DNA of 64,000 nt from an uncultured Flavobacteriales bacterium. Lineage in GTDB: Bacteria > Bacteroidota > Bacteroidia > Flavobacteriales_F > PHOS-HE28. Below are positions 9,824-20,428 of the stretch, one piece after another. The stretch covers positions 1 through 64,000 of the forward strand of contig CALMPI010000031.1 in NCBI GenBank assembly GCA_937872175.1, written 5' to 3'. A model generated the notes under the pieces. That model saw only the letters and a list, made by a program, of their open reading frames with translations, searched no databases and was not told where the DNA came from. The first letter of the stretch is position 1; each line of letters starts with the position of its first letter. Made by a program: the position numbers and the translations under genes.

Positions 9824-11426
9824 TCCGGGTCATGCCTTCCACCTGCTCCAGGGGCAGCAGCTGGGTCTCCTTGCTGACCTCGCGACCGTGGTCCGGTGCC
9901 GTGGCCGTCAACACCTCCTCCACCACCGCATGACCCTCGGCCTCGGTGCGCAGGTGGTACCGTTCGCCGGGCTTCAGCACCATCAGGTAGCGGCCGGTGG
10001 ACGCGTGGGTGTTGTAGACCCCGACGATCTCCTCACGCGCCTCATCCTCCACCACGATCCGTGCCCGCAAGGGCTCGTCGCGATGGTCCGCCACGATGCC
10101 GCGCACAATGAAGAACTCCAGCTGGCTGGAGGGGAAGATGACCTGGTAAATGTCCTGTGCGCCCAGTCCACCGGGCCGCTCCGAGGAGAAATAGCCGGTG
10201 GTTCCGTCCTCGCTCAGGCAGAAATAGATGTCGTCGTTCACCGTGTTCAACGGGTAGCCCATGTTCTCCGGATCACCCCAGCTGCATTGGTCGTGGTCCA
10301 GCATCACGCTCTTGAAGATGTCGTATCCGCCCATCGTGCCATGTCCGTTCGAGCTGAAGAAAAGCGTCGACCCGTCGCTGTGCAGGAAGGGCGCGTCCTC
10401 ATCGAACGGCGTGTTGATGGTGGGTCCCAGGTTCAGCGGCAGGCTCCATTCCCCGTTCGGCAGGCGGCGGATCCGGTACAGGTCGCGGCCACCGAAACCG
10501 CCGGGCCGGTCGCTCGTGAAGTAGATCTCCTCACCGTCCGGGCTCAGGGTGGCGCTCGGCTCGTGGTGCTCGCTGTTGATGCGCTCGGTCATCAGCTCCG
10601 GCATGTTCCACAGGGCCACCGACCGCCTGCTCTCGAACAGGTCGCCGCTCACCAGGCCCTGTCCCGTGCGGTAGATGATCATGCTCGTGCCATCGGCGGA
10701 CAGACCCACCGTGGCGTCCTGAAGGGCGGTGTTCAGCGGTACGCCGGCGTTCACTGCGTTCGACCAGACCTCGTCCACGCGCCGCGCCATGTAGATGTCC
10801 TCGAACCACTGGCCGTTCGGGTCCTTCAGGCCGCCGGTGGTCCCCTCGCGGCGCGAGGTGAAGTACATCGTGTTCCCGTCGGCGGTCACCAGCGGGCAGT
10901 AGTCGTGCGCTGGCGAGTTGATCAAGGCGCCGAGGTTGCGCACCGTCAGGTCCACCGGGGTGCGCACCAGTGCCTTGGCGTTGCGGCAGATGATGACCGA
11001 CCGGTCCACCTCCGCATCGCCCACCAGCCTGTGCTTGGTGGCTTTGTAGTGGTTGAGCAGATCGATGGCCTCGTCGAAGCGCTCCTGGCGGTGCCGCGCG
11101 AGCCCAAGGTGGTAGAGCGCTTCAGGGTGACCGTTCCGCAACGCGCGCTCGAAGAGCGGCGCGGCCTTGTGCCGAAGGCCGGGGATCTGGGCGTAGCACA
11201 GACCCAGTTCGTGCGCCACCTCGGCGAAGGTGGTGTCCACGTTCTCCAGCCGCCGGTAGATCTTGGCCGCCTCCACATGGTCCTCCACGGCCAGCAACAT
11301 CTTGGCCTCGTCCAGCATGCGGTTGTGCACACGGGTGTAATTGGCCTGGCCCCATGTGGTGAGCGGGGCGGTCGAGAGCAGCAATACGGGGATCAGGTAG
11401 CGTTCGCGCATGCGTTCAAGGTTCAT
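9813..11426 (-). CDS. TPR/PD40-repeat periplasmic protein, PorE-like but without an OmpA domain
   Basis: A 537-residue protein with a signal peptide (ending near TTWGQ). Residues about 25-160 resemble TPR repeats (EAAKIYRRLENVD, HPEALYHLGLARHRQERFDEAI). Residues about 170-420 hold PD40 beta-propeller blades (TMYFTSRREG, EIYFTSDRPGG, TLFFSSNGHG, TGYFSSERPGG). Residues about 430-510 look like a carboxypeptidase-regulatory or Cna-B sandwich (VRGIVADHRDEPL). In PorE-type proteins an OmpA peptidoglycan-binding domain would follow, but this protein ends in a short polar tail instead. ATG 11426 overlaps the adhesin stop as ATGA. It is inferred to assist secretion or anchoring of the adjacent PKD protein. 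Confidence 0.85.
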   Translation of the reverse strand: MNLERMRERYLIPVLLLSTAPLTTWGQANYTRVHNRMLDEAKMLLAVEDHVEAAKIYRRLENVDTTFAEVAHELGLCYAQIPGLRHKAAPLFERALRNGHPEALYHLGLARHRQERFDEAIDLLNHYKATKHRLVGDAEVDRSVIICRNAKALVRTPVDLTVRNLGALINSPAHDYCPLVTADGNTMYFTSRREGTTGGLKDPNGQWFEDIYMARRVDEVWSNAVNAGVPLNTALQDATVGLSADGTSMIIYRTGQGLVSGDLFESRRSVALWNMPELMTERINSEHHEPSATLSPDGEEIYFTSDRPGGFGGRDLYRIRRLPNGEWSLPLNLGPTINTPFDEDAPFLHSDGSTLFFSSNGHGTMGGYDIFKSVMLDHDQCSWGDPENMGYPLNTVNDDIYFCLSEDGTTGYFSSERPGGLGAQDIYQVIFPSSQLEFFIVRGIVADHRDEPLRARIVVEDEAREEIVGVYNTHASTGRYLMVLKPGERYHLRTEAEGHAVVEEVLTATAPDHGREVSKETQLLPLEQVEGMTRNER

Positions 11427-14400
11427 CGGATGAGGGTCACATCGCCTTTCAACATCTCTTCGCGGCCGTCGCTGAAGCGGGCACGCGCCTTCCAGGCGTA
11501 GACGTCCTGCTTGGCGGGCTGGCCCCGGTAGAAGCCGTCCCAGCCCTGCTTCACATCGAACGTCTCGAAGACGAGCTCGCCCCAGCGGTTGAAGACCTGG
11601 AGGTGGTAGTCCTCCACGCCCTCCTGCACGGGGAAGAAGAAGTCGTTGCTCATCGAGCTCGGGTCGTACAGGCCATCCGTGGGCCCGTCGTTGTTCGGGG
11701 TGAACGCGTTCGGGAAGGCGATGGCCCCTGATGCAATGCCGGTCACCGCATCGGCCACCACGAAGGTGTCCGGGCAGTTCCAGGCGTTGTTGGCGATCAG
11801 GCTCACGGTGTAGCTGCCCGGGTCGGTGTAGGTGTGCACCGGGTTCAGCACCGTGCTGGTGGTGCCGTCGCCGAAGTCCCACCAGTAGCTGTCCGCGTTG
11901 CCGCTCAGGTTGTAGCCATACACCGGTTGACCCGGCACCACCACTTCCTCGGGCTGAAGCACGAAGTAGGCGGTGGCGCTGGGATGCACCACGATCGAAT
12001 CCACGTGCACGGTGGTGTTCACCGTGCCCCCCGGACCATAGGCCGTGAGCATCACGGTGTAGGTGCCCGGCAGGGTGTAGGTGTACACCGGGCTGTCCGC
12101 TGTGCTCGAACCGCCGTCGCCGAAGTTCCACAGGTAGCCTTCGCCGAGCAGGGAGGTGTTCGTGAACTGAACCGTGAGCGGCGCACAGCCCTCGCCCGAT
12201 CCGATGAACGCGGCCGTCGGATACGGCGGCTCGATGGTCACCACCTGCGTCGCCGTGTCACTGCACACGTTGTCGGTCACCACCAGCATGATGGTGAACT
12301 GACCCCAGCTCGCATAGGTGTACGCACCCGGCTGCTGCCCGGTGAGCGCTCCGCCATCCCCCATGCTCCACGTGTGCGACCAAGGTCCCGGACCTGTGTT
12401 GTTGATCAAGGTGACCGTGGAGGCCGGGAACTGCTGCGTGAACGGCGTGGCCTGGAACTGGGCCGTCGGTGATGGACGCACCGTCACGGTATGCTGGGCC
12501 GTATCCGTGCAACCCCAGGCGGATGTGGCCGTGAGCGTCACTGTCCAGGTCTGGTTCGCGGGTGTGCCGTTCACATACGTGTGCGTGGGGGCACTGCCCA
12601 CGAGCGTGACGCCGTCGCCCATGTCCCACAGGTAGCTCGACGCCCCTGTGCTCGTGCTCACCGGCGCATAGGCGAGCGGCGAACAGCCATCGGCCGGGGC
12701 GGTGAACGCGGCCGTCACGGCAGGGTACACCTGCACCGCCGCCTGCGCGGTATCCGTGCAGCCGTGCACGCTGGTGCCCACCTGGGTGATGGTGAAGGAT
12801 ACCGGTACACTGTCGGCATGGGCATAGGTGTGCGTGGCGTTGCCCGGTGCCCCGCTCTGCTGCGTGCCATCGCCCCAGGTCCAGGTCACCGAGAGGGCCC
12901 CGATGGAGAGGTCCTGCACGCTTACCGGGAAGGGCTGGCAGCCCGCGAGAGCGCTGGGGACGAACTGGGCGATCGGAGCCGGATGCACCAGCACATCCAC
13001 TTGGGCCGTATCGCTGCAGCCGTAGGAGGAGGTGGCCACCAGCGTGGGGGTGAAGACCACGTCGTTCAGCCCCTGGTTCAGGTACGTGTGCGCCGGGCTC
13101 GCCAGTGAACTCGCCCCGCCGTCCCCGAAGGTCCAGAAGTAGCTCGTGGCCCCGATGGAGAGGTTGGCGAGGTCCGGGTCGAAGGGCGCGCAGCCCACCG
13201 TGTCCGCCGTGAACTGGGCGATCACCGCCGGGAACACCTGCACCTGGCCGCTGGCCACCGCGCTGCATCCGTGCACGTTCGTGGCCGTCAACCCGATGGT
13301 GTACGTCTGGGGCGTGCTCTGGAAGTTCGACCACGTATGCGGGTGCACGGCGGCGGTGGTGTCCGACAAGCTGCCGTCGCCATAGGTCCACGCGTAGTCC
13401 ACTGCACCCAGGCTCGTGTTGGCGAGCTGTGCGGTGAGCGGATGGCAGCCCTGCTGAAGGTCCGTCGTGAACGCCGCCGAAGGCACGGGGAACACCGTGA
13501 CCTGGTCGTAGGTGGTGTCGACGCAGCCGAAGGCATTGGCCCCGATCATCGTCACCGGGTAGGTGACCGGGGCGGATGTGGTGTTGAGGTAGTTGTGCGT
13601 CGGCGAGGCCCCGGTCCCGGTGCTGCCGTCGCCGAAATCCCATTGGTGGCTCACAGCACCGACAATGGTGGGGAAGGTGACCGTGAGCGGGGAACAGCCG
13701 CTGTCAGGCTGCGTCACGAACGTGAACTGGGGCATCGGGTACACCAGCAGCGTGGCCGTGGCCGTATCCGCGCAGCCTGCGGCCGAGGTGGCGATCAGTT
13801 GCACGGTGTTCGTCTGCAGGAACAGGGTGTTGTTCACGTACTGGTGCGCGGGCGATACCGCCGTGCTCGTGCCCCCGTCACCGAAGCTCCATGCATAGGA
13901 GCCCGCTCCGGTGCTGGTGTTGGTGAACTGCACATCCAGCGGCGCGCAGCCCGGCAGCCCGTTGTGCGTGAACCCGGCCACCACCGGAGGCGCCACGGTG
14001 ATCAGTGCGGTGGCCGTGTCCGCGCAACCGAACAAGGTGCTCGCGATCAGCGTCACGGTGTCCACCACATCGATGGGGCCCGCGTTGATGAAGGTGTGCA
14101 GTGGTGCGGTGGCCGTGCTGGTGCCGCCATCCCCGAAGTCCCAGGCATAGCTCACGGCACCGGTGCTGGTATTGGTGAACTGGACGTCCAGCGGCGAACA
14201 CCCGATGCTCGGCACCGGCAGGAACGCCGCCGTGGGCAGGGCTTCCACCAGTACGTTCTGGAACCCCGTGCCTCCGCAGTAAGGCGTGGTCACCGTCAAC
14301 GTCACCGTGTAGCCGCCGTTGCCGGCATACAGATGCGTCGGATCCTCCAGGGTGGAGGTGCTGCCATCCCCGAAGTCCCAGACCCATTGCGTCACCGGGT

Positions 14401-15952
14401 TGCCCGGCTCGGTCACCGTCTGGTCCGAGAACTGAGCTGCCACGCCTTCGCATACGTTCTGCGCGCCGATCTGTACGCTAGGCGGGGCGTACACGTGGAT
14501 GTCGTGCGTATGGGTGTCCTGGCAGCCGTCGACGTTGGTCACCGTCAGCGTCACCGTGTACGTGCCCGGCGCGCCGTAGAAATGTGGCGGGGGCTCGAAG
14601 GCGGTGATGACCGTGCCGTCACCCAGGTCCCACACATGGCTGATCGCGTTCACCGAGGTGTTGGTGAAGGCCACCGTGAGCGAATCGCAGGCGGCGTCCT
14701 GGTCAACGGTGAAGTCCGCGGTGGGGCTCGGCAGCACCACGACGGTCACGGATGCGGTGTCGGCGCAGCCCGCCGTGGCGCCTTGAATGCTGGCGGCGTA
14801 GGAGACCACGAAGGTGCCCGCCGTTCCGTAGGTATGCGTCTGGTCGCCGGCGCCCGTCCATTGGAACCCGGCGCCCGTGCCGAAATCCCACTCGAAGAAG
14901 TTGGCCCCGCCCCCCGTGGTCTCGTCGAAGGCGATGGTGCCCCCGGCACATACCGTGTCCGGCGTGGCGCTGAGCGCGACGTTCGGGGGAGGCACGATGG
15001 TGATCTGCACATAGGCCGTGTCGATCCCGCAATAGTTGCTGTCCAGCAGCATCACCTCGTAGGTGCCGATGCCGGGATATTCGATGGTGCGCGGGAACGT
15101 GGGCGGCCAGGGCGCCCAGTCGATGATCGAGTCCTGGCCCTGGCCCCAATAGTCGCCGAAGTTCCAGTATTCGAAGCGCTGATAGATGTTGCCCTGCTGC
15201 AGGCAGTTGCGGTCGGTGACGTTCAGGAAGGTCACCGTGCGGTCCGGCCAGCATAACAGCGTCGCGCTCGGGGCGATCTGTGCACTGTCGATGTCCCACA
15301 CCCGGATCGGATTGAAGGTGGCCACGCTCGGTCCGCCCTGAAGGGTGTTGCACACGTTCTCCGCGTAGAGCCGCACCGTGGTCTCGCAGCTTACCGTGCC
15401 CGGCATGTACGTGTGCGTCACCGTCTGCCCCAGGTTGGTGTGGTCGTACACCAGCTGTGTGCTCGCATCGCCGAAGTCCCAGGTGAACACCGTGTTGGGT
15501 GAGACGTTGGTGCTGGAGTTGATGAAATCGACCGCTTGTGGGGCGCACACCTGCGTGAGGCCGCCCACGGGGATCTGGATCGAGGCGCTCGTGCTCTCCT
15601 CCATGATCACCGTGCCGGTGACCACGCATCCGCTCACCAGTTCCGTGAAGGTCACGGTGTATTCCGCGACGGCCGGAGCGTACACATGCGTCACGGTGGC
15701 CGGCGCGATCAGCGAACCGCCCACATGGAGCGGGCTGCCGTCGCCCCAGTTGATGGTGAAGCCGCCGACGATGTTCTGCGGGGAGGCGATCACCAGCGTG
15801 AAGGGACCGCCCGAACAGCTGTACCACTCGGCGGTGTCGCTCGGGTTGCCCCAATAGTCGTAGAGCTGCGGGCACTGCGCCTGGCCCCGGCCCGCCAGGG
15901 ACAGGGCCGCCAGCAGGCCGGCCACGCGCACGAAGCTCCTCTTGGTCCGCAT
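11423..15952 (-). CDS. Giant PKD-repeat surface protein with gliding-type C-terminal sorting domain (T9SS CTD type B)
   Basis: The 1509-residue protein begins with a signal peptide (MRTKRSFVRVAGLLAALSLAG) and is then almost entirely PKD-like modules. I count about 14-16 copies of the (W/Y)xxGDG core, such as WDFGDGSTST and WSFGDGGTST. Many are preceded by GCxPLxVQFTNTS and spaced 80-90 residues apart. The last ~95 residues (FPNAFTPNNDG, FNRWGELVFET, GWDG, VYAWK) form the gliding-motility C-terminal domain that directs type IX secretion. A role as a surface adhesin is inferred. ATG 15955 is an alternative start. A weak box, TATCCTTCG, lies at 15992-15984. Confidence 0.93.
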   Translation of the reverse strand: MRTKRSFVRVAGLLAALSLAGRGQAQCPQLYDYWGNPSDTAEWYSCSGGPFTLVIASPQNIVGGFTINWGDGSPLHVGGSLIAPATVTHVYAPAVAEYTVTFTELVSGCVVTGTVIMEESTSASIQIPVGGLTQVCAPQAVDFINSSTNVSPNTVFTWDFGDASTQLVYDHTNLGQTVTHTYMPGTVSCETTVRLYAENVCNTLQGGPSVATFNPIRVWDIDSAQIAPSATLLCWPDRTVTFLNVTDRNCLQQGNIYQRFEYWNFGDYWGQGQDSIIDWAPWPPTFPRTIEYPGIGTYEVMLLDSNYCGIDTAYVQITIVPPPNVALSATPDTVCAGGTIAFDETTGGGANFFEWDFGTGAGFQWTGAGDQTHTYGTAGTFVVSYAASIQGATAGCADTASVTVVVLPSPTADFTVDQDAACDSLTVAFTNTSVNAISHVWDLGDGTVITAFEPPPHFYGAPGTYTVTLTVTNVDGCQDTHTHDIHVYAPPSVQIGAQNVCEGVAAQFSDQTVTEPGNPVTQWVWDFGDGSTSTLEDPTHLYAGNGGYTVTLTVTTPYCGGTGFQNVLVEALPTAAFLPVPSIGCSPLDVQFTNTSTGAVSYAWDFGDGGTSTATAPLHTFINAGPIDVVDTVTLIASTLFGCADTATALITVAPPVVAGFTHNGLPGCAPLDVQFTNTSTGAGSYAWSFGDGGTSTAVSPAHQYVNNTLFLQTNTVQLIATSAAGCADTATATLLVYPMPQFTFVTQPDSGCSPLTVTFPTIVGAVSHQWDFGDGSTGTGASPTHNYLNTTSAPVTYPVTMIGANAFGCVDTTYDQVTVFPVPSAAFTTDLQQGCHPLTAQLANTSLGAVDYAWTYGDGSLSDTTAAVHPHTWSNFQSTPQTYTIGLTATNVHGCSAVASGQVQVFPAVIAQFTADTVGCAPFDPDLANLSIGATSYFWTFGDGGASSLASPAHTYLNQGLNDVVFTPTLVATSSYGCSDTAQVDVLVHPAPIAQFVPSALAGCQPFPVSVQDLSIGALSVTWTWGDGTQQSGAPGNATHTYAHADSVPVSFTITQVGTSVHGCTDTAQAAVQVYPAVTAAFTAPADGCSPLAYAPVSTSTGASSYLWDMGDGVTLVGSAPTHTYVNGTPANQTWTVTLTATSAWGCTDTAQHTVTVRPSPTAQFQATPFTQQFPASTVTLINNTGPGPWSHTWSMGDGGALTGQQPGAYTYASWGQFTIMLVVTDNVCSDTATQVVTIEPPYPTAAFIGSGEGCAPLTVQFTNTSLLGEGYLWNFGDGGSSTADSPVYTYTLPGTYTVMLTAYGPGGTVNTTVHVDSIVVHPSATAYFVLQPEEVVVPGQPVYGYNLSGNADSYWWDFGDGTTSTVLNPVHTYTDPGSYTVSLIANNAWNCPDTFVVADAVTGIASGAIAFPNAFTPNNDGPTDGLYDPSSMSNDFFFPVQEGVEDYHLQVFNRWGELVFETFDVKQGWDGFYRGQPAKQDVYAWKARARFSDGREEMLKGDVTLIR
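11750..15900 (-). repeat. Tandem PKD-module repeat region
   Basis: DNA of the PKD modules repeats with a period near 260 bases. A recurrent core encodes WxFGDGG/S and a second block encodes GC(S/A)PLxVQFTN. The copies have diverged and indels are not obvious. Confidence 0.75.
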
Positions 15953-16050
15953 CATTCCGCCCCTTCCTACGGCGACCGCCGGGCGAAGGATACCCGCGAA
16001 CCCTGGCCTTCGACCGGCGTACAACGGGCATCGACCACCTCCCCTCCCTC

Positions 16051-17532
16051 ATGGAACGATACGACCTGTGCGTCATCGGTGGCGGCCCCGCCGGATACGC
16101 GGCCGCCATGCGCGCCATCGACCTTGGCCTGCGCACCCTGCTGGTGGAGAAGGACCGCATCGGAGGCACCGGCATCTACAACGGGGCACTGATGTCCAAA
16201 ACGCTGTGGGAGATCGCCCAGCGCGTGGCCGGCACCAATGCCATGGTGCGCACCCGCGGCATCCCGCCCTTCCAGCCCTCATGGTCGGGCATCACCCGCG
16301 CGGTGAACGAGGCGGTGTTCGAGCGCAAGTACCTCTATGCGTGCCACATGCAGCTTCTGGAGGGCCAGGGCCGCCTGTTCCAGCACGCCCGTGGCAACGC
16401 GTCCTTCATCGGACCGCACCACGTGGCCATCGACCTGGCCGGCCAGCGCCGGGTGATCGAGGCGGACCATGTGGTGATCGCCACCGGATCCAAGCCACGC
16501 TCACTGCCCGGCCTGGCCGCCGATGAACAGCGCATCCTCACCAGCGACGGCATCTTCCAGCTCGAGGAGCTGCCGGAGAGCATCGTCATCGTGGGCGCCG
16601 GGGTCATCGGCTGCGAGTTCGCCACCATCCTCAGCCACCTGGGCCGCACACGCGTGCACCTCATCGACCGCACCGAGCGCATCCTGCCGTTCGAGGACGC
16701 CGACATCAGCGAACTGGTGGCCGGTAATCTGGAGCGCAACGGCGTGGTGATCCACCGATCCGCCAAGCTGGAGCGTCTGGAAGCGATGCCCCACGGCGTG
16801 GAGTATGACCTGAGCTACGCCGACGGCACCACCGAGCGTGTCACCGTGGAGAAGGCGCTGCTGTCCGTGGGCCGTTCACCCAGCCTGCAGGGCCTGGGCC
16901 TGGACCGGGCCGGCCTCGCGGTGGATCCGCGCACCGGCGCATTGGCCGTGGACGGCATCCGCACCGCCCAGCAGCACATCCTGGTCGTGGGCGACGCCAC
17001 CGGAAGCAACATGCTGGTGAACCTCGGCGAGCTGGAGGGCCGGCATGCCGCCGAGCTCATCGCCGGCCGGCGCCCCGCGCCGATCAGCTACGGACAGGTC
17101 AGCACGATCATGTTCCTCGATCCGGAAGTGGCCGGGGTGGGGCTCAACGAACAGGAATGCCGCCGGCAAGGCATCGCGCACCGGGTGGCCCGCATCGACT
17201 ACAGCTGCCTGGCCCGCGCCATCGCCATGCGCCGCACCCAGGGCTTCTTCAAGGTGATCGTCACGGACGACGAGCACATGCGCATCCTGGGCATGCGCGC
17301 GGTGGGCGAGCACGCCTCCAGCGCCATCGAGGCCGTGGCCCTGCTCATGCACATGGGTCAGGGCATCCAGCACCTGGCCGAGCTCGTGCATCCCCACCCC
17401 AGCATCATCGAGGGGGTTCAGGAATGCGCGCGCATCCTGATGGGCACCAGCATCTTCAAACCCGAAGTGTTCGCCGATCGCATGCAGAGCCGCAGCTGGC
17501 GGCCACCCACGGCCGTGGAACAGGCCGCCTGA
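16051..17532 (+). CDS. FAD/NAD(P)-dependent oxidoreductase, dihydrolipoamide-dehydrogenase-like, lacking the redox disulfide
   Basis: The 493-residue protein has the full class I pyridine-nucleotide-disulfide fold: FAD-binding CVIGGGPAGYAAA, the ATGSKPRSLPG segment, NAD(P)-binding VIVGAGVIGCEFA, the second FAD motif ILVVGDATG, and a C-terminal dimerisation domain with HPHPSIIEG (H449, E454). The place of the active-site GGTCxxxxCIPSK instead reads GGTGIYNGALMSK, so the two cysteines are G41 and A46. Dithiol chemistry is therefore impossible. An NAD(P)H oxidase/dehydrogenase or SthA-like transhydrogenase role is possible but unproven. The next gene is convergent and abuts it directly. Confidence 0.85.
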   Translation: MERYDLCVIGGGPAGYAAAMRAIDLGLRTLLVEKDRIGGTGIYNGALMSKTLWEIAQRVAGTNAMVRTRGIPPFQPSWSGITRAVNEAVFERKYLYACHMQLLEGQGRLFQHARGNASFIGPHHVAIDLAGQRRVIEADHVVIATGSKPRSLPGLAADEQRILTSDGIFQLEELPESIVIVGAGVIGCEFATILSHLGRTRVHLIDRTERILPFEDADISELVAGNLERNGVVIHRSAKLERLEAMPHGVEYDLSYADGTTERVTVEKALLSVGRSPSLQGLGLDRAGLAVDPRTGALAVDGIRTAQQHILVVGDATGSNMLVNLGELEGRHAAELIAGRRPAPISYGQVSTIMFLDPEVAGVGLNEQECRRQGIAHRVARIDYSCLARAIAMRRTQGFFKVIVTDDEHMRILGMRAVGEHASSAIEAVALLMHMGQGIQHLAELVHPHPSIIEGVQECARILMGTSIFKPEVFADRMQSRSWRPPTAVEQAA

Positions 17533-18669
17533 TCACGGGGTGCCCGGGTCCTGGAAGCGCGGGTCGTTCACGAAGTCCTGGTCCGTGAGCGCGTTCAGGA
17601 AGGCCACCAGCGCCGCCTTGTCCGCCGCAGGCAATTGCAAGCCACCCTGCGTGTGCTTCATGAAGGTGCTGATGGTCTCCGACGGGATCCCGCCCGAGTT
17701 GTAGTGCTCGATCACCTCCTCCAGGGTCTGGAACCGACCATCGTGCATGTAGGGACCGGATAGCGCCACGTTGCGCAGGGTGGGCACCTTGAATTTGGCG
17801 CGGTCCAGGGGGTCGCCGGTCACCTCGTAGCGCCCCAGGTCCGTGAAGATGGAATCCAGGCCGTTGTTCTCGAACTGACCGTTGGTGAAGAGTCCACCCA
17901 CCTGGGTGTGGCAGTGGAAGCAGTCCGCGCCCCACTGGCCACCCTGGCCGTCGGCCGGGTCGCCGCCCTCGAGCTGCGTAAGGATGAAACCGCGCTGCTC
18001 CTGCTGGGTGAACACCGCTTCGCCCCGGGCCACCTTGTCCACCTTGGAGTTGGCGCTGATCATTGTGCGCAGGAACTGGGCCATGGCCTTGGCCACCAAG
18101 GTGCTGTCGATCACCTCGGTGTTGAAGGCCTGGATGAAGAGCGCCCGGTACGCGCTGTCCGCCTGCAGCTTCGCCACGGCGTTGGGCCATGTCTCGTGCA
18201 TCTCGATCGGGTCGATCACCGGCTGAAGGATCTGCTCCTCCAAGGTGGCCTTGCGTCCGTCCCAGAAGAAACTCGTCTCCCAACCGAGGTTCATCAACGC
18301 CATGCTGTTGCGTCGACCTTCGATGCCGTCGATACCCGTGCTGAACGCGTTCGGGCCATCGCTGAAGGCCGTGGCCGGCGCGTGGCAGCTCGAACAGCTT
18401 TGTGTATTGTCGCCGCTCAAGCGCTCCTCATAGAAGAGGTAGCGGCCCAGTTCCACACCCTTCACCGTGATCGGGTTGTCCGCCGGGATCACCATCGGCG
18501 GGAAGTTCGCGGGCGTCACCAGCGGATAGGGCGTGGGGTCGTAGACCGGCTCATTGCTGCCACCGCCACCACCTCCCGTTGGCGGGTCCGGGCCGGGCTT
18601 GCGGCAACTGGCGATGGCCATCACCCCGAAGGCGATGGCGGCAAGGATGCGGGTGCGTGTTCCGATCAT
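17533..18669 (-). CDS. Di-heme cytochrome c peroxidase / MauG-MbnH-like lipoprotein (first copy)
   Basis: A 378-residue lipoprotein (lipobox IASC, Cys22) with a glycine-rich linker, then two c-type heme sites: CSSCH (residues 92-96) and CFHCH (about 249-253). Motifs of the CcpA/MauG family are clear: VELGRYLFYEERLS, FWDGR, KVPTLRNVALSGPYMHDGR. Such enzymes oxidise partner proteins or reduce peroxide in the periplasm. Its start overlaps the end of the second copy by 4 bases, and that gene overlaps mbnP, so all three are one operon. The partner is probably MbnP. The two copies differ enough not to be a recent duplication. Confidence 0.9.
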   Translation of the reverse strand: MIGTRTRILAAIAFGVMAIASCRKPGPDPPTGGGGGGSNEPVYDPTPYPLVTPANFPPMVIPADNPITVKGVELGRYLFYEERLSGDNTQSCSSCHAPATAFSDGPNAFSTGIDGIEGRRNSMALMNLGWETSFFWDGRKATLEEQILQPVIDPIEMHETWPNAVAKLQADSAYRALFIQAFNTEVIDSTLVAKAMAQFLRTMISANSKVDKVARGEAVFTQQEQRGFILTQLEGGDPADGQGGQWGADCFHCHTQVGGLFTNGQFENNGLDSIFTDLGRYEVTGDPLDRAKFKVPTLRNVALSGPYMHDGRFQTLEEVIEHYNSGGIPSETISTFMKHTQGGLQLPAADKAALVAFLNALTDQDFVNDPRFQDPGTP

Positions 18670-19679
18670 GGCACTTGATCGAGGCTGCGTTCGTCCGTCA
18701 GGGCGTTCAGGAAGGCCAGCAGGTCGGCACGCTCCTGGGCCGTGAGGGTGAATGGCGTCATCAGCGGGTCCTTGTTGGGGTGCGCCACGCCGCCGGAGGC
18801 GAAGTGGTCCACCACCTCACCCAACGTGGCCATGGCCCCGTCGTGCATGTACGGGGCGGTGAGCGCGATGTTGCGCAGCGTCGGCACCTTGAACTTGCCC
18901 TCGTCGGCCGGGTCGAGGGAGATCCGCGCCCGGCCGGGGTCCGTATAGGTGCTGTACTGGCCCACGTTGCGGAAGCTGTGGTCGCTGAGGTCGAAGCCAC
19001 CGTGGCACGCCGTGCAGCCCGCCACCGGGCCGGAGAACAGCTCCCAGCCGCGTACCTCGCTCTCGGTGAGCGCCGAGGCCTCGCCCTGGTACATGTAGCG
19101 GTCGAAGCGCGACCAGCCACTGATCAGCGTGCGCTCGTAGTTGGCGATGGCGCGAGTGATGACATAGGGATCGAGCGGACGCCCATAGGCCTGCTGGCTC
19201 AGGCTCCGGTAGGGTTCTTCGTCCCTCAGTTCATCGGCCACGGTGAGGATGCTGTGGTCCATCTCCAGGTCGTCGTGGATGGGCGCCAGCACCTGCAGCT
19301 CCAAGGTGGGCACACCGCCATCCCGGAAAAGGGCCGGATGGTAGGCCACATTGGCGAGCGTGGGCGAATTGCGCAAACCGGGCTGCTGGGCCACCCCGAG
19401 GCTCAAGGCCACCGTATCGCTGAACGCCCGGTCCGTGAAATGGCAACCGGCGCAGCTCAAGGTGCCCGTGCGCGACAAGCGCGGTTCGAAGAACAGGTGC
19501 CTGCCCAGTTCCACGCTGGGCCTGGTGAGCGGATTGTCCGCCGGCACCGGTGGGGCAGGCATCCAGGCAGGCAGGTCCAGCATGAAAGGCTCCACCGGGC
19601 CGTCCTGCAGCAGCGGTTCATCCTTCCGGCAGCCCGCCAGCCCGACCACCAGCAACGCTATCGCCAGCCGACCCTTCAC
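18666..19679 (-). CDS. Di-heme cytochrome c peroxidase / MauG-MbnH-like lipoprotein (second copy)
   Basis: A 337-residue lipoprotein (GLAGC, Cys17) with heme sites CAGCH (76-80) and CTACH (about 221-225). VELGRHLFFEPRLS, LFRDGG and KVPTLRNIALTAPYMHDGA align with the first copy. Directly after mbnP, with a 4-base overlap, it holds the position usually occupied by MbnH, the enzyme that in methanotrophs converts a tryptophan of MbnP to kynurenine. That reaction is established for MbnH; its occurrence here is inferred. Confidence 0.9.
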   Translation of the reverse strand: MKGRLAIALLVVGLAGCRKDEPLLQDGPVEPFMLDLPAWMPAPPVPADNPLTRPSVELGRHLFFEPRLSRTGTLSCAGCHFTDRAFSDTVALSLGVAQQPGLRNSPTLANVAYHPALFRDGGVPTLELQVLAPIHDDLEMDHSILTVADELRDEEPYRSLSQQAYGRPLDPYVITRAIANYERTLISGWSRFDRYMYQGEASALTESEVRGWELFSGPVAGCTACHGGFDLSDHSFRNVGQYSTYTDPGRARISLDPADEGKFKVPTLRNIALTAPYMHDGAMATLGEVVDHFASGGVAHPNKDPLMTPFTLTAQERADLLAFLNALTDERSLDQVP

Positions 19680-20428
19680 TCCACCTCGATGCTGTTGAGC
19701 ACGTTGTCCGTGAACCGCATGGCCAGAGGCATGTTGTCGCCATGCGCCTGATGATCCACGGCCAGGTCCAAGGTGTCCACCGCATTGTAGAAGAACCGGT
19801 CGACCGCGACCCGAAGGACCAGATCCGTGGTGTCACCTCCCTCCACAGTGAAGGGTGCGGCGAAGTCCAGATCGCGCACCCGGTAACAGGGCGCCATACC
19901 GGTGTGGATGGAGAACAGGCTCATGGGGGTTCCCGTGCCGTTCGGATCGGTATCGTAACGCCCATCCAACATCACGAACCGGTAGCCGGTGGCCCAGGTC
20001 CAGTAGGTGCCGTTGCTCACGCTCAACGGGTGACCCACGGGATAGAGCACCGGGTCCGAGGTGTTGAGGTCGTCCGGCACGCCCAGGCCGAAGTGCAAGC
20101 CGCTGTACGCGCCGGCCTCAGCGGGATAAACGAACGCATCACCACCGTTCAACGCATCGAACAGGGCGATGTCGGTCAGGGCGGATGCTCCACCGGGTCC
20201 GGTGAGTCGCAGCTCGGCCAGGTAGAGCTTCAACGCCTCCACTTGGGTGCGGTAGTTGCTCACGTTCAGATGCACTTCTCCGGCCTGGAGGGGCTGCCCC
20301 TGCCAGGTGGCCTCCACCTTCAGCCGGACATAGCCTTCAGGTCCGTCCACCGTGTACGGTTTGTGGCAGCCGGCCAGCAGCATGGCCGGGCCGACGAGCA
20401 ACGCGGAGGTGCGAAGAATGGGATGCAT
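19676..20428 (-). CDS. MbnP family copper-binding lipoprotein
   Basis: A 250-residue lipoprotein (lipobox LLAGC, Cys21). The MbnP family is recognised by LYLAELRLTG, LFDALNGG, SGLHFGLGVPDDLN, the Trp-rich YWTWATGYRFVMLDGRY and the C-terminal DRFFYNA/VDHQAHGDNM region. Methanotroph MbnP binds copper and carries a kynurenine made by the di-heme enzyme MbnH; the tryptophans in YWTWATGY are the obvious candidates here. It heads a three-gene operon with two di-heme enzymes. ATG 20428 gives the lipoprotein signal; a perfect TACCTTTG box lies 56 bases upstream. No methanobactin precursor gene is visible nearby. Confidence 0.88.
   Translation of the reverse strand: MHPILRTSALLVGPAMLLAGCHKPYTVDGPEGYVRLKVEATWQGQPLQAGEVHLNVSNYRTQVEALKLYLAELRLTGPGGASALTDIALFDALNGGDAFVYPAEAGAYSGLHFGLGVPDDLNTSDPVLYPVGHPLSVSNGTYWTWATGYRFVMLDGRYDTDPNGTGTPMSLFSIHTGMAPCYRVRDLDFAAPFTVEGGDTTDLVLRVAVDRFFYNAVDTLDLAVDHQAHGDNMPLAMRFTDNVLNSIEVE

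Follow-up and report, generated by a model that had tools for sequence, protein, structure and literature searches.

A family of dihydrolipoyl dehydrogenase-like flavoproteins in Bacteroidota that lacks both redox cysteines and keeps the His-Glu dyad

The microtubule-associated protein Irc15p of Saccharomyces cerevisiae has the fold of dihydrolipoyl dehydrogenase (Lpd) and its His-Glu dyad, with Tyr and Ala in place of the two redox cysteines. It is 40% identical to yeast Lpd1p and is reduced by NADH at 250 per s; ferricyanide, DCPIP and menadione serve as electron acceptors, it is inactive on lipoic acid, cystine and glutathione, and its conformation shifts with NADH and peroxide (PMC6296175). 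Its diaphorase/quinone activity was measured with artificial acceptors and may be non-physiological. The Lpd-like LpdA of Mycobacterium tuberculosis (Rv3303c; NF005883, PDB 1xdi) does not reduce disulfides and acts as a quinone reductase (PMC6296175). The soluble transhydrogenase SthA/UdhA (NF003585), also without the disulfide, passes hydride to NADP+; its C45A variant, with no motif cysteine left, still transhydrogenates with 62% coupling and a rate down about 10-fold, the uncoupled remainder going mostly to H2O2 (PMC9460512).

We analysed a 64 000-nucleotide stretch of DNA from an uncultured Flavobacteriales bacterium (contig CALMPI010000031.1), here called the window. Positions 16051-17529 (+), with the stop codon through 17532, encode a flavoprotein of 493 aa with two domains, a member of the disulfide-reductase superfamily, and its homologues form what we call the NGAL family. 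The Pfam domains are Pyr_redox_2 and Pyr_redox_dim. The AlphaFold2 model has a pLDDT of 89.4, and its top Foldseek matches are Lpd structures, the best being 6uzi (TM 0.88/0.93). The features of the gene are as follows.

16051-17532 (+), stop included: flavoprotein of 493 aa, cysteine-free at the redox motif (NGAL family), from its two Pfam domains, the AlphaFold2 model and Foldseek.
16078-16095 (+): FAD Rossmann motif GGGPAG, residues 10-15 of the translation; G10, G12 and G15 invariant.
16162-16200 (+): altered redox motif GGTGIYNGALMSK, residues 38-50, with G41 and A46 where both cysteines belong.
16594-16611 (+): NAD(P) Rossmann motif GAGVIG, residues 182-187; G182, G184 and G187 invariant.
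16666-16668 (+): D206, an acidic residue that the alignment puts where the second NAD strand ends; nearly all members carry D or E.
17395-17397 (+): H449, the dyad His, unchanged in every member compared.
17410-17412 (+): E454, Glu of the dyad, invariant in all compared members.
17437-17529 (+): C-terminal tail LxGxSxFKPxxF..., not present in Lpd; K470 invariant.

Where the superfamily has GGTCx4C this protein reads GGTGIYNGA, so that G41 (16171-16173) and A46 (16186-16188) occupy positions that hold Cys in every Lpd compared. The original prediction, that both redox cysteines are replaced while the two nucleotide-binding motifs and H449 and E454 remain, is borne out by the translation on each point. 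Its interval of 16170-16215 spans residues ~41-55; the motif itself lies at 16162-16200. In known relatives the dyad His works in the active site of the partner subunit. The D206 position holds the adenosine ribose in NADH-using Rossmann-fold relatives, and D206 therefore suggests a preference for NADH, which we favour as the donor.

A search of related genomes found the gene in 32 of the 35 genomes of the genus, own genome included. A 42-member profile picked it up in 103 of the 395 class genomes sampled, about a quarter, spread over many families, and it occurs also in two families of other classes within the phylum. (A first phylum-wide count of 8/395 came from a different sample, which under-represents the family relative to the class sample.) A wide gap separates members from Lpd, with E below 1e-145 for the former versus about 1e-79 for the latter. 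Searches of 398 Pseudomonadota genomes gave no match either with the single protein (E<=1e-75) or with the profile (1e-95), taking the best three candidates per genome and with no positive control; among plasmids, a Legionella Lpd was the sole match at E<1e-60.

The cysteine-free state is a property of the family. Neither cysteine occurs at any of the 49 loci inspected outside the genus or in any inspected member within it; the same double replacement is seen throughout, which puts it far beyond chance, and the motif is mostly GG[T/A][G/A]xx[N/D]GALxSK. Homologues restoring either cysteine, which the original prediction took as the sign of an isolated degenerate copy, were sought among these loci and none was seen. 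H449 and E454 are kept in every member with a readable C-terminus (loci L147 and L052 stop short of it). In an alignment of 34 diverse members, 84 positions are constant at 97% or more. Those held in common with Lpd include both nucleotide motifs, K50, G314-D315, H449, P450 and E454; the family-specific ones include A46, L47, W53, V323-N324 (Ala-His in Lpd), I353-M354, R394, R416, Q457, R461 and K470. We also considered a relocated disulfide or substitute cysteines elsewhere, which the alignment does not support: no Cys column is common to all 34 broadly sampled members, C188 (97%) and C459 (94%) being common and not universal.

Against the closest relatives dN/dS is about 0.07-0.15 by NG86 (YN00 values were unstable and are left out), and the family is under purifying selection. 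The original prediction had argued that a conserved catalytic frame without its disulfide implies different chemistry, and a loss fixed family-wide under such selection supports this. Most likely the window gene is no decayed copy but encodes a functional enzyme whose chemistry has changed. A deep separate subgroup at 42-44% identity, from small genomes of one family (L178, L179 and L180 of f92), has QPHPA/S instead of HPHPS and E for D206, and its substrate may have diverged.

No NCBIfam model claims the family, and every model listed for the window protein scores below its own cut-off. The best is the Lpd model TIGR01350 (352.2 bits, cut-off 408.8), naming a function that is impossible for this protein by dithiol exchange; the LpdA model NF005883 gives 244.5 bits by protein and 243.3 by genome (cut-off 479). 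The host genome (99.99% complete) carries one canonical Lpd (GGICLNWGCIPTK) elsewhere, separate from the window gene and about 29% identical to its product. A canonical Lpd-like enzyme was present in each of six family-bearing genomes searched for paralogues, so the work of Lpd is covered in them. The family resembles Lpd in fold, FAD and NAD motifs, K50, the His-Glu dyad and the two-Rossmann/dimerisation architecture, and differs in having G41/A46 for the CxxxxC of Lpd.

Maximum-likelihood trees, built from quick searches and taking in Lpd, SthA, GR, MerA and RclA, recovered the members as a single clade (SH-aLRT 100) whose long stem measures 1.4-1.5 changes per column and which is separate from Lpd, SthA, MerA and glutathione reductase. 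A sister relation to SthA (AU p 0.26) or to Lpd (p 0.14) was not rejected. SthA shares the nucleotide motif GAGVIGCEYASIF as well as the missing disulfide. It has CxxxxT, or SxxxxT in some members, where the NGAL family has GxxxxA, and 13/13 SthA proteins compared have Tyr (YxxxxE) in place of the dyad His. The SxxxxT form was seen in two Pseudomonadota SthA-like proteins (L184, L189), and the SthA cysteine itself is thus dispensable in nature. LpdA has one Cys and is without the His-Glu dyad; the NGAL family is the reverse on both. Defining features of each of Lpd, SthA and LpdA were tested and are lacking in the NGAL family, which therefore belongs to none of them. Irc15p is a single yeast protein, whereas the NGAL family is bacterial, forms its own deep branch and has Gly and Ala in a GxxNGAL-type motif. 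Given the 40% identity of Irc15p to Lpd1p, the two cysteine losses are likely to be convergent.

The window gene stands alone, divergent from the first of the neighbours below and convergent with the second, after which comes MbnP; this layout is preserved throughout the genus and echoed in other families. Both lines are given for context only. As had been predicted, no lipoyl-enzyme gene is among these immediate neighbours.

11426-15955 (-): large protein with PKD repeats and a CHU_C type IX secretion signal.
17533-19679 (-): two di-haem cytochrome c peroxidase (CCP_MauG) genes.

Elsewhere the gene lies beside pntAB, which encodes the membrane transhydrogenase. In two families that are non-sister in the larger tree it is first in a co-directional block with pntA1, pntA2 and pntB (L057 4955-9447 (-) and L058 3505-8067 (-)), and in a third it adjoins a convergent pntA-pntB (L145 526-5105); pntA is split in two genes in the former pair and unsplit in the latter. 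By rough reckoning, adjacency to one given operon would arise by chance at ~0.002 per genome, and three cases among some 30 families are unlikely to be chance. The adjacency connects the gene with NAD(P)H balance. An obligate pairing was considered and rejected: pntB is absent in 36/60 family-bearing genomes tested outside the genus and in the window's own genome, and pntAB is therefore a link and not a required partner, adjacency being a minority pattern.

With middling confidence we read the protein as an NAD(P)H-oxidising flavoenzyme in which FADH2 would hand its electrons straight to an acceptor other than a disulfide, a quinone-like one being favoured. For the NGAL enzyme we infer donor, acceptor, dimer, direction and role as follows. 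The Lpd fold and hydride transfer from NADH to FAD would be retained and the dithiol chemistry given up, and a homodimer is expected. NADH, the donor indicated by D206, would reduce FAD at one face. Because the disulfide is absent the known dithiol route is impossible, and electrons from NADH must therefore leave FADH2 directly; a small non-disulfide acceptor would receive them in the cavity vacated by the cysteines, and the H449'-E454' dyad of the other subunit would donate or take a proton. The acceptor would most likely be a quinone, which the original prediction had also tentatively raised, or a similar conjugated small molecule, quinone-like ahead of NADP+, and the role would be NAD(P)H redox balancing.

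Nicotinamide-nicotinamide hydride exchange needs no proton and SthA does without the His, so its invariance in the NGAL family favours an acceptor needing protonation, such as quinone. The active-site match to Irc15p likewise favours a quinone-like acceptor. Counting against the quinone reading, no quinone-binding or membrane-anchoring feature was identified in the protein, and the invariant N324, R331, R394, R416, R461 and K470 could equally serve to bind an anionic substrate instead.

The same comparisons bear on the foremost alternative, a soluble transhydrogenase like SthA, which would bind NADH and NADP+ (or the reverse) one after the other and exchange hydride through FAD. We consider it rather unlikely. 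It gains from the company of pntAB in three families, from a possible sisterhood with SthA, which the AU test does not reject, from the nucleotide motif and absent disulfide held in common, and from the transhydrogenation that SthA C45A still carries out (PMC9460512). Against it, the invariant dyad His is Tyr in SthA, the Thr of the SthA motif is Ala here, the SthA model NF003585 gives 257 against a cut-off of 465, D206 points to NADH over NADPH, and the family is a clade of its own.

Somewhat less likely again is the reverse direction, in which the enzyme would be a dehydrogenase oxidising an anionic small substrate with NAD+, the dyad His serving as base. The invariant dyad, the new invariant R394, R416, R461 and K470, not in Lpd, and the conserved extra C-terminal tail would all suit it, whereas no substrate or pathway genes recur beside the gene across families. 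A redox sensor or scaffold, non-catalytic or weakly so and altered in shape by NADH binding, has been suggested for Irc15p, whose conformation responds to NADH and peroxide (PMC6296175). For the NGAL family we think this improbable, as the dyad, K50 and the nucleotide motifs are invariant through wide divergence, pointing to catalysis. We reject an isolated, decaying Lpd paralogue, which would fit a cysteine loss in one sequence and nothing else, since the change is fixed family-wide in full-length genes of low dN/dS present in 32/35 genomes of the genus and 103/395 of the class.

Returning to the directly transferring flavoenzyme, its type of active site is already known from one yeast protein, Irc15p, and the large bacterial family is apparently undescribed, no bacterial Cys-free family of this kind having been found in the curated libraries or literature searched. 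It is possible, and we put it forward tentatively, that this widespread family combines direct hydride transfer from FADH2 to substrate, retained His-Glu acid/base catalysis and a dedicated physiological substrate, coupled to NAD(P)H transhydrogenation. If true, this would add another kind of active site to those of the flavoprotein disulfide reductase superfamily. The family is a natural experiment, the superfamily fold without its disulfide and with its acid-base pair, and may uncover a missing enzyme of NAD(P)H balance in bacteria without pntAB.

Several neighbours recur near the gene. The two CCP_MauG peroxidases and MbnP, in a row at 17533-20428 (-) of the window, are kept beside the flavoenzyme across the genus, and similar genes lie beside it in families f5 and f84. 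A PorP/SprF-like protein (type IX secretion-linked, named by eye) and PKD-repeat proteins turn up repeatedly in the gene's vicinity in several families (L057, L144, L145, L146, L150, L153, L154, L160 and L178). A small Cys-rich protein with a CLTCANCC motif, YkgJ-like by eye, is encoded divergently to the gene in five families (L152, L155, L156, L157, L161, L162 and L058).
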